64,000 nt of DNA, taken from positions 1,054,001-1,118,000 of the forward strand of contig JAXQJY010000030.1 in the NCBI GenBank assembly GCA_037042185.1, read 5' to 3'. The stretch is from Sordariomycetes sp. S80-01Y (taxonomy: Eukaryota; Ascomycota; Sordariomycetes). The notes under the pieces are model-generated. The model had not been told where the DNA came from. It ran no database searches and was given only the letters and a program-made list of their open reading frames with translations. Position 1 is the first letter of the stretch. Each line of letters starts with the position of its first letter. Both the position numbers and the translations under genes were made by a program. Below are positions 25,444 to 48,400 of the stretch, in pieces.

Positions 25444-25566
25444 AGCAATTTGGCGCAGTGGAAGCGCGCCGGGCTCATAACCCGGAGGGTACGTCTCGCA
25501 GAACTCCCAAGTTCGAATCTCGTCTAACAACAACTCTAGTCCTAGGATCGAAACCTAGAATTGCTA
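25444..25566 (+). tRNA. Initiator tRNA-Met (CAT) with a 51-bp insert in the variable loop
   Basis: After removing 25489-25539 the remaining 72 nt fold perfectly as eukaryotic initiator tRNA. Acceptor stem AGCAATT/AATTGCT pairs 7 of 7 with the initiator-specific A1:U72 pair; D stem is GCGC/GCGC; anticodon stem CCGGG/CCCGG has the initiator GGG/CCC pairs; anticodon CAT is at 25476-25478. T arm is CTAGG-ATCGAAA-CCTAG with the initiator AUCGAAA loop; discriminator is A25566. The A box is TGGCGCAGTGG. The insert interrupts the variable loop (AGG^TC), not the usual 37/38 intron site. It begins GTACGT and ends CTAG, with CTAAC at 25524-25528. All stems being intact and a T7 run downstream argue for a live gene, not a relic. 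How the insert is removed is unknown. Confidence 0.9.
25489..25539 (+). other. Intron-like insert within tRNA-iMet
   Basis: 51 bp starting GTACGT and ending TAG, with a CTAAC branch-like motif whose A lies 12 nt before the end. The same donor hexamer is used by both TSC13 introns in this window, and the length matches local protein-gene introns. It also contains GTTCGAATC at 25511-25519, which fits the pol III B-box consensus. Confidence 0.75.
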
Positions 25567-25983
25567 TCTTTTTTTGCTCTCCTGCCTTTTGCGTTTGATC
25601 TATACGTGTTCAATCTTTTTATTCCCGTGAAATGCTGCTAGGAATTCCCTGAATACAGCAATACTATGGGAATTTGCGTTCGCATCTGCGCACTTTGTGG
25701 GCAGAGGATCCTCTCGATGGTGGACCGTTGAAGTGGATGTGACTCACCAGGGGTGGTGGACAGGAGGCTCGTGCGAGTAGCGAGGTTGGCTACACAACCA
25801 CCAAGACCGTCGACGGGTTTGTCTCCGCAAACTTCGAGGTATTGCGGGGATAACTATGAGGAGACGCGTATCTCTTTTGGTATCTTGGTATCATGGTATC
25901 ATATAACCCCAGCGAAGTCCCCCACAATTACAAGGCCCTATCTGGCCGGTATCCCGTCTTCCTACTCGTGTATATTACAACCC
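25567..25983. other. Spacer between tRNA and Zn2Cys6 gene
   Basis: 417 bp holding the tRNA terminator and the 3' region of the minus-strand regulator. A direct TATCTTGG/TATCATGG-like repetition lies near 25880. No gene seen. Confidence 0.4.
25569..25575 (+). terminator. RNA polymerase III terminator (T7)
   Basis: Seven consecutive T residues start 2 bp after the tRNA discriminator base. This is the normal pol III stop signal and supports transcription through the whole interrupted gene. Confidence 0.85.
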
Positions 25984-45480: not shown

Positions 45481-48400
45481 ATGATTCCCGCGCCAACGGC
45501 GGTTTGGTCGCCCTCTGGTTTCCCAGGCATGGATCTCCCCGAACGTATGCCGGGCGCTTCTATGCCAATCGCGGCAAGGAATGTCCCTGAGAACCCTTCG
45601 GGAGGCCGACGACCGATTCCGAATTCAGCTGCGACATCGAATGGTCCGACTCCTACACCGCCCATGCCGACTTTGCGCAAGATCCCATCGAGTACGAACC
45701 TATCTGCCAGCGACCCGCTACCCCCATCGAAAGTTGTTGCGCTTGCACGAGATGCGTTGCGCAGTGCGCTTGAAAACGAAAGCCAGGTAGCTGAAGGCGG
45801 TGTGCCTGGTGGAAGTATCAAACCCGGTGTCACCGTGGATTTGAGCCGGAAGAATATTCAGAAAATCCCTGATGAGGTGGTCAATATCGTGAAAAATGAG
45901 CTTGAACGGTGAGATACTTCCTATTCCTTCCGGAGATGTCAAAACGCTAAACACTGCGCTTGCTCGTAGGCTTGCGCTTTCTCACAACCAGATCTCCAGC
46001 TTACCTTCTCGGTTCTCCGAATGCACTTCGTTGCGTTACCTCAACATAAGAGCAAATAACATCAGAGATTTTCCAATATCGGTAAGTGAGAATTCTTGGC
46101 AAATGGTGGGAACGCATCTAACAGCCCCAGCTTTGCGACCTACAGTCACTGGAGATTCTGGATCTAGGGCGAAACCAGATCCAGGTTCTCCCACCCGACA
46201 TAGCGAAGTTGACATCCCTCAAAGTCTTCTCGGTCCGCAAGAACTTGATAAGAGAGCTTCCAATATGTCTCGCCGAGATGGGGTCATTGCAGGTGCTCAA
46301 GTTCGAAGGCAATCCGCTGGTGTTCCCTCCCAAAGAAGCCCTGCAACCACAAGTGCCGATGCCACCAAACGAGCCGTACGCAAGAGAGTCGGAGGTCACG
46401 GAAATAGCCATCACCGTGCAAGTCAAGCGGTATCTCAAGCAGTACAGCCTGAGTGGCCGGTTGGAGACGGACTTACCACCAGTTGACGAGTCCGGCGAAC
46501 CAGCAGAAACTCCACGCGTTCATTCCAAGCGCAGGATTAGCGGTCGGTTCCCCATCAAAGTCCAAGGGGCTGATTTACCCGATACTCGATCGCCTGGCAT
46601 ACGCGGTATACCACCGGTCCCCCAGCGATCTCACTTCCGCGGTCTATCTCAGCAGAATACTTCGACACGACGGCCGGGTGTAATGCCACTCACTTTAGGC
46701 AGCGCCAACGAGCGTCTGCGCAGCAATTCGGAAACCCACATTCGCCAAGAGCGTTCGGAAAGTCGCAATCGACGGATGGGTATCGTTTCGAAGAAGGCCT
46801 CAGAACTGGGGACGCTGGATGAGACAGAAGCCAACAACCGCTTCAGTCATTATCGCGGGCTTAGCCACGGGTCAGCCATGCAGGGCGCACCTATTGGTCC
46901 CAAAGAACCGCCGACTCCAACGGAGCAGTATCCCCAACGACCGGTGTATGTTCGGAGGTTGTCGGTACTGCCCGAGCGGCGGCGCGAGTCCAAGATCTTC
47001 GACCCTGTTGTAGAGACTGCAAAGGGCATTCTTTACTCGGTCTTCACGATACATCCACAGATCCAGATGCTCATGAGTCTGACGAATGACGGGTCAGCTA
47101 AGAGATCAAGTCTAGAAATCGTCTTCTACAACACCAACTCTCACGTAGAGGAGCTCGAACAGGAGATTCAGAAACATGTCGTCGCCTCCGCAGAAGAGGA
47201 CGCGCCTCGCGAGAATGAAAGCGTACATCGAGCTTGTCAGACGCTTGTCAGCGCCTACGGTCATGTCTGCACGCTCCTGGCTGACAACATCGAGACATTC
47301 GTTGACAACGGCGACCCTCGTTACATTCGGAGTCTGCTCCAAATGCTGTATGCTAGTATAATGGAGTTGAGAGCAACCCTCTCTTCCGTCAGTAAAGAGG
47401 AGCGACACTCAAGGCAACCGTCTGAGGTGGAGTCTACCCATGACAGCTACACCTTGAAGCCACATAGTCAGCCTCCTTCGACACCTTCCACCATGCCTCG
47501 CCAGGGCATTACGCGGAGCCGTAACGGCACGCTTGTACACAACCCGGCAAACCTTCGTGTGGCGACAAACGTCCCTGTGCCCGTACCTTATACCAACGGA
47601 CACAACCACATCGACTCTTTGGCATCGGCAACACCCCGCTCAGGAGAGTCGTTCACATCCGCCGTCAGCCGCGACGTCCGATCAGACACCTCTGAAGAGG
47701 ATGCTGCCTTCGAGAAGATCTTCCTGTCATTGCAGAGGTCTGCCGATATCGTCGTGCGGACTTTGCCAGCCTTCAACCTCCAGCTGAGCGGTGGCCTCAG
47801 AAACGCCATGCAAAGGGGGGCGCCGCCAGGTCTGATCAAGCAATGGAAGGACTTGATCGCTATGTGCGAGACATTCGTCCACCAGACTGAGATCATTCGG
47901 AGCCGCCTGTCACTTCTGAAGCTCAAAGAGCCTGGCGTGCGATCGCAGCCCAGCTTCTGGATATTATGCAATAATTTTGTCGTCTCGTGGACCGACATGG
48001 CCCATCACATCAAATTCTCCATCAACACTGTTGCTTTGCCGTCAGACACCAAAGCCCGGCTGAAGCCTATCCAGCAGAGCATGCAAGAAACCAGCGGTAC
48101 CATCTTGCAGTCACCCTGGAAGGATCTTTTCCACCAACCCGATGCTCACGCCAGCCACACCACCAACGGATCACTCGGAAGCATCCAACAACCAATGTCA
48201 CCAACTCAAGTTTCCATCACACCGCAGAGCGCAGCCTTGGGTCCGGCAATGCAAGCTACTGTTCCCAAGACACCGCGCAATGACTCCTTCGCGGCAGCAT
48301 TTCACGGCAATGTATTCGATAGAGCCGATACCTTGATGGCCAATCCAGGCAAGTCCATGAGTCGACCTGGTATGCCGCGCAAAGGACACTCAAACCTCAG

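Follow-up and report, generated by a model that had tools for sequence, protein, structure and literature searches.

Probable mRNA-type introns in the initiator tRNA-Met gene and other nuclear tRNA genes of a sordariomycete fungus

Results

An initiator tRNA-Met (iMet) gene of Sordariomycetes sp. S80-01Y is interrupted by an insert that is very probably a spliceosomal (mRNA-type, GT-AG) intron, and it belongs to a group of at least nine nuclear tRNA genes, in five families, that appear to carry such introns. The gene lies in a 64,000-nt stretch of DNA (the window), which is C13:1054001-1118000 of a 30.87-Mb genome in 16 contigs. A first-pass annotation of the window had proposed that this tRNA may depend on the spliceosome, or on an unusual endonuclease, for its maturation. 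The present analysis supports that proposal and much strengthens its spliceosome limb: a copy on contig C15 is interrupted in the same way and keeps its splice signals, seven more genes, from four further families, have inserts of this kind at four positions other than that in iMet, and all nine inserts resemble a protein-coding intron and lack the complete helix of a strict endonuclease motif.

The initiator tRNA gene in the window

Positions 25444-25566 match the Rfam tRNA model with a large insert included. Once 25489-25539 is excised, 72 nt remain, which ARAGORN calls as tRNA-Met(cat). The hallmarks of initiator tRNA-Met are A1:U72, GGG/CCC, A54 and A60, and a CAU anticodon, and the spliced sequence and the ARAGORN call together show all of them, with four of four stems paired and the loop ATCGAAA. 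The first-pass reading of a paired 72-nt initiator tRNA, interrupted by 51 bp with GTACGT, CTAAC and a TAG that ends 12 nt past the branch-like A, is borne out in its coordinates. The boundary is ambiguous by one base, since AGG/G...TAG/TC and AG/GG...TA/GTC give the same spliced product, and only the first of these yields GT-AG. On sequence, the gene is of the pol III tRNA type, with an A box, a B box and a T-run terminator. Its features are as follows (insert positions in the tRNA, here and below, come from exon lengths, with standard numbering applied by hand).

25444..25566, + strand: initiator tRNA-Met gene with insert, 123 nt (Rfam RF00005, 53.4 bits; ARAGORN after insert removal)
25444..25488, + strand: exon 1, 45 bases, mature tRNA nt 1-46 in standard numbering (identical in the C15 copy)
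25451..25461, + strand: A box TGGCGCAGTGG, pol III internal promoter (consensus match)
25489..25539, + strand: probable mRNA-type intron, 51 nt, GTACGT...CTAAC...TAG, in the variable loop at nt 46/47 (homologous 52-nt intron in C15)
25489..25494, + strand: 5' splice site GTACGT (identical in the C15 copy)
25510..25520, + strand: intronic B-box-like element AGTTCGAATCT (block conserved between the two iMet copies)
25524..25528, + strand: branch-point-like CTAAC, likely branch A at 25527 (conserved in C15)
25537..25539, + strand: 3' splice site TAG (comparison with the C15 copy)
25540..25566, + strand: exon 2, mature tRNA nt 47-73 (reading of the spliced sequence)
25545..25555, + strand: the tRNA's own B box in the T arm, GGATCGAAACC, 83 nt past the A box (consensus match)
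25569..25575, + strand: T7 run, pol III terminator-like (C15 has T5 at the same place)

ARAGORN in its default run calls no tRNA in the window, and with introns allowed it calls the two iMet loci Gly and SeC; tRNA finders can therefore mislabel interrupted genes of this kind.

Other initiator and methionine tRNA genes

A whole-genome DNA search with the iMet gene found two places, and the insert is present in both. The second standard copy, C15:1952371-1952494, is 89% identical over the query. The exons of the two copies are identical (72/72), the introns (51 and 52 nt) agree in 41 of 55 alignment columns, and the flanks are little alike. Common to both introns are GTACGT, AGTTCGAATC, CGTCTAACAA and TAG, and CTAACA is kept. 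The D-arm word GCGCAGTGGAAGCGCGC matches exactly, genome-wide, only at these two copies. With up to three mismatches it occurs at 147 places, compared with 127 for a control pattern, and among the best 30 of the 147, which were inspected, a Met anticodon arm follows in two. The word GGGCTCATAACCC is exact at five places, namely both iMet copies and three where ARAGORN calls no tRNA.

C6:475296-475367(-) encodes an uninterrupted 72-nt tRNA with a CAT anticodon, A1:U72 and the ATCGAAA loop (45.3 bits). It shares 56 of 72 bases with the spliced iMet, carries G14 and A53, and has two mismatches in the T stem. Fourteen consecutive T lie about 10 nt downstream. The copy may have decayed or taken on a specialised role. 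The first-pass annotation had asked whether other iMet copies share the insert, and the answer is divided: the standard C15 copy does, and this diverged initiator-like copy does not. Because it exists, the interrupted copies need not be indispensable, and no other result here weighs as heavily against the view that splicing of iMet is obligatory for the cell.

The elongator Met genes, C14:917743-917851(-) and 917415-917523(-), are read as carrying ordinary 37/38 introns, in place of the His(atg) label that ARAGORN gives them. Another locus labelled Ile(aat) by ARAGORN is read here as Ala-AGC from its likeness to a second locus.

Interrupted genes in other tRNA families

The same anatomy recurs in tRNAs of other families. 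Together with the two iMet genes, the following seven make nine genes in five families, on five contigs.

C11:2323230-2323368, - strand: Gln(ttg), 52-nt insert GTGCGT...CACTAAC...TAG at 34/35; the longest tRNA match
about C3:685163-685296, - strand: Arg(ccg), insert at 19/20; the sole Arg-CCG gene found
about C7:341078-341224, - strand: Leu(aag) copy 1, insert at 18/19
about C7:343507-343656, + strand: Leu(aag) copy 2, insert at 18/19
C11:2157029-2157153, + strand: Ile(aat) copy 1, insert at 26/27
C11:2157693-2157817, + strand: Ile(aat) copy 2, insert at 26/27
C11:2160812-2160936, - strand: Ile(aat) copy 3, insert at 26/27

The five positions (iMet 46/47, Ile-AAU 26/27, Leu-AAG 18/19, Arg-CCG 19/20, Gln-UUG 34/35) do not include the canonical 37/38. 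All nine inserts are 49-52 nt long, begin with GT (GTACGT, GTATGT, GTAAGC/A or GTGCGT), end with AG (TAG or CAG) and have CTAAC or CTAAT near the 3' end, with the branch A 9-12 nt before the end of the intron. Conservation within families follows the pattern of the iMet pair. The Leu-AAG pair has identical exons (98/98) and introns that agree in 46 of 52 columns, and the Ile-AAU trio has identical exons (74/74) and introns that agree in 42, 49 and 42 of 51 columns. The three Ile-AAU genes lie within 4 kb (C11:2156880-2161080), two on one strand and one on the opposite.

In three of the five families (Gln, Arg and Leu) the interrupted genes also have an ordinary 37/38 intron; the Gln gene retains one of 15 nt after excision of its 52-nt insert. 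Gln-UUG has two copies, one with the mRNA-type insert and the other with an ordinary intron only. Every standard iMet, Ile-AAU, Leu-AAG and Arg-CCG gene found is interrupted (two, three, two and one genes, respectively), and neither in the Rfam tRNA search nor in the B-box pattern searches of the genome did any Ile-AAU or Leu-AAG gene lacking the insert turn up. The survey gives minimum counts, since the Rfam search scored 63 of 683 candidates. The B-box pattern GGTTCGANTCC gave 93 places (64 fetched, 29 already known tRNAs) and GGTTCGANCCC gave 78 (67 fetched, 11 already known tRNAs). For GAGTTCGANCCTC, allowing one mismatch at most, the listing gave 100 of 195 places, from which 11 of the 12 exact places (the twelfth being a known tRNA) and seven hand-picked one-mismatch places were fetched. 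Genes for Asn-GUU, Pro-UGG and Gly-UCC were not found in this lower-bound survey, and the Asn-GUU pattern GGCTGTTAACC has four places in the genome, none called as a tRNA. Two genes read as Pro-AGG, which lie on separate contigs (within C9:381170-381470 and C16:3537666-3537966), are identical over the tRNA and 18 downstream bases, and not over the whole fetched stretch. For SRP RNA, a single match spans the full model at 280 bases, a length that shows no insert of the mRNA-intron kind.

Statistical and comparative tests

In a virtual splicing test, each GT[AG]NG...CTAAC/CTAAT/CTGAC...AG stretch of 45-61 nt was cut out and a tRNA was sought across the junction, in 338,739 bases of this genome (247 loci and the window). 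The 155 cuts gave 14 tRNA junctions, which are exactly the nine genes; the excess over nine comes from overlapping loci and from two alternative 3' ends each in Gln and Arg. Five decoy motif sets (143, 58, 58, 186 and 96 cuts) gave 1, 0, 0, 0 and 0 tRNA junctions, and the lone decoy junction falls inside the interrupted Gln gene. Most of these loci had been selected by tRNA words and not by intron signals; the Gln gene had been noticed beforehand.

Away from the candidate loci, ARAGORN gives 38 further unique tRNA introns. Some of these parses are surely wrong, and none of the introns runs GT...AG even with a one-base shift allowed. The signals in the iMet insert go beyond chance: in the fetched sequence of this genome, 49 of 495,782 start positions, real introns among them, begin a stretch of 48-53 nt that runs from GT to AG with CTAA[CT] 9-12 nt before its end. 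Over the whole window, intron-like triples number 23, compared with 18.7 +/- 5.7 in shuffles, which is weak evidence alone.

A protein-coding intron in the window provides a yardstick.

46082..46130, + strand: intron of the SOG2 gene, 49 nt, GTAAGT...ATCTAACAGCCCCAG (flanking protein homology, joined in frame)

The nine tRNA inserts match the size and signals of this single homology-confirmed mRNA intron. The C-terminal 800 residues of the window SOG2 have their closest named matches in the Hypocreales (Stylonectria, Cosmosporella, Fusarium, Amphichorda) at 65-67% identity, and further matches reach 87%; the homologues of this one protein place the fungus in the Hypocreales. A search by 5.8S rRNA for the species gave no match. 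Pattern scans for relatives found no places in genome_contigs and viral_contigs. A common origin of the intron families was considered and rejected: across families, intron interiors aligned no better than shuffles, and alignment beyond shuffles was confined to the iMet pair and to the single Ile pair compared.

Promoter elements and terminators

All nine introns sit between the A box and the B box. The A box reads through intact, and in the Leu-AAG genes it is completed by the first G of the intron. Across the nine genes the tRNA's own B box lies 83-109 nt past the A box, and each gene has at least four consecutive T starting no more than 18 nt past the tRNA end (within 22 nt downstream).

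The two iMet introns share the B-box-like AGTTCGAATC, which belongs to a block that both copies have conserved and lies 48-50 nt beyond the A box. It agrees with the consensus at 9 of 11 positions in the window gene and 10 of 11 in C15, the N position being counted as a match. A score of at least 9 was reached by 131 of 5000 random 51-mers, so the match alone is mild evidence, and conservation between the two copies is the better sequence argument for a putative intronic B box. The other seven introns score 5-8 and have no such element.

A U6 snRNA gene with an intron

In fission yeast, the B box of the U6 gene lies within its intron. The U6 gene on C8 in this genome reads ...GAAACGATAC/GTAAGT...CACTAACGTCATAACAG/AGAGAAGATTAGCATGG..., where an mRNA-type intron of 51 nt, at C8:978366-978416(-), interrupts the ACAGAGA box, and the intron contains the B-box-like GGTTCGAAC. 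The Rfam match (978300-978404) is misaligned, with intron bases taken as the 5' part of U6. The precedent that the first-pass annotation had drawn from fungal U6, an mRNA-type intron in a pol III RNA, is present in this genome too. The C13 iMet intron and the U6 intron have only GTTCGAA in common. A second, diverged U6-like gene, C8:546034-546133(+), has no intron and has a T run, and it parallels the diverged intronless initiator-like tRNA on C6.

Discussion

Alternative explanations

One alternative is that the tRNA splicing endonuclease cuts the inserts at bulge-helix-bulge (BHB) motifs, which would make the inserts noncanonical tRNA introns like those of archaea, Cyanidioschyzon merolae or cryptophyte nucleomorphs, and their GT-AG look a coincidence. 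The BHB motif is a 4-bp helix between two 3-nt bulges. A test of the strict motif, with a one-base boundary shift allowed, found this central helix complete in none of the nine genes (two or three of four pairs at best), and the reading was rejected on this pairing. Predicted precursor folds of the two iMet genes also differ around the junctions. Archaeal noncanonical introns do occur at sites such as 20/21, 25/26 and 45/46, and those of nucleomorphs are known from the D and T arms, according to the available part of PMC4090602; the inserts here, however, combine GT, CTAA[CT] and AG in all nine cases, and the 38 other tRNA introns offer no instance of GT...AG. Cutting at BHB motifs is thus very improbable.

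Slightly less credible again is the idea that the interrupted genes are dead, disrupted copies and that working copies elsewhere (C6:475296-475367 for iMet, for example) serve the cell. The intronless initiator-like tRNA on C6 and the Gln-UUG copy with only an ordinary intron are what it would expect. However, in the iMet, Leu-AAG and Ile-AAU families the introns have diverged and the exons remain 100% identical, the searches made found no Ile-AAU or Leu-AAG gene without the insert, and the C6 copy has the departures listed above. Dead genes are unlikely to keep exon identity and splice signals, and the reading was rejected for this reason. The least credible alternative is that the precursor works unspliced with its insert, or that the insert is an assembly error. 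Coherent signals in nine genes on five contigs speak against both, and a working tRNA is unlikely to tolerate a 56-nt variable loop, a split anticodon (Gln) or a split D loop (Leu, Arg). Spliceosomal introns in pol III tRNA genes are the preferred reading.

Proposed maturation and its consequences

If the inserts are spliceosomal introns, pol III would transcribe the iMet gene as far as the T run, using the A box and B box; the intron disrupts none of these elements. The major spliceosome would recognise GTACGT, CTAAC and TAG and remove the 51 nt as a lariat in the nucleus, which would leave an initiator tRNA of the normal 72 nt. The ordinary 37/38 intron of the Gln, Arg and Leu genes would then be cut out by the tRNA endonuclease. 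This enzyme would presumably act second, because the mRNA-type intron breaks the D arm or anticodon needed for recognition. The B-box-like AGTTCGAATC of the iMet introns may aid TFIIIC binding at a more usual distance from the A box.

The wider proposal has several parts: that the spliceosome matures iMet, Ile-AAU, Leu-AAG and Arg-CCG, that some precursors are then cut by the endonuclease, that the B box in the iMet and U6 introns serves transcription of its own gene, and that translation would thus depend on splicing. We consider the chances for and against it to be evenly balanced. Protein synthesis in this fungus may depend on the spliceosome in a previously unknown way. If so, the spliceosome can process pol III tRNA precursors, translation initiation is tied to splicing capacity, and the five positions and the Gln pair with and without the insert offer a natural system for the invasion of new genes by introns.

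Comparison with known systems

In the textbook account, nuclear tRNA introns are endonuclease substrates and spliceosomal introns belong to pol II transcripts; the small-RNA exceptions named are U6 (and U3). Spliceosomal introns also occur in the rRNA of lichen fungi. Among the titles and abstract openings listed by searches of the open-access literature, none reports mRNA-type introns in tRNA genes, which does not imply absence in print. The accessible portions of PMC8450103, PMC3978253 and PMC11782384 hold nothing that alters this picture.

Canonical nuclear tRNA introns (37/38, Sen/TSEN endonuclease) likewise lie within nuclear tRNA genes, but they differ from the inserts described here in position, sequence signals and expected enzyme. 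The noncanonical tRNA introns of archaea, C. merolae and the Guillardia theta nucleomorph resemble them in lying away from 37/38 (PMC4090602, in the text available). The same text supposes that eukaryotic tRNA genes with D- or T-arm insertions are mostly pseudogenes and that noncanonical introns are rare, the nucleomorph and C. merolae excepted (PMC4090602). In contrast to those introns, the inserts described here have no complete BHB helix and carry GT-CTAA[CT]-AG signals.

The closer likeness is to small noncoding RNAs. Fungal U3 snoRNA has a spliceosomal intron, although its host is not a tRNA. Among small structured RNAs, frequent interruption by an intron is known for U3 and U6 alone, according to the available text of PMC5832005, which names no interrupted tRNA and cites a survey of U6 intron insertion in fungi. 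For the fission yeast U6 intron, reverse splicing has been proposed as the origin (PMC10484740, available in part). Fungal U6, in fission yeast and others and in this genome too, has an mRNA-type intron in a small structured pol III RNA, as the interrupted tRNA genes appear to have. The U6 host, however, is itself a part of the spliceosome, whereas here the hosts are tRNAs of five families.
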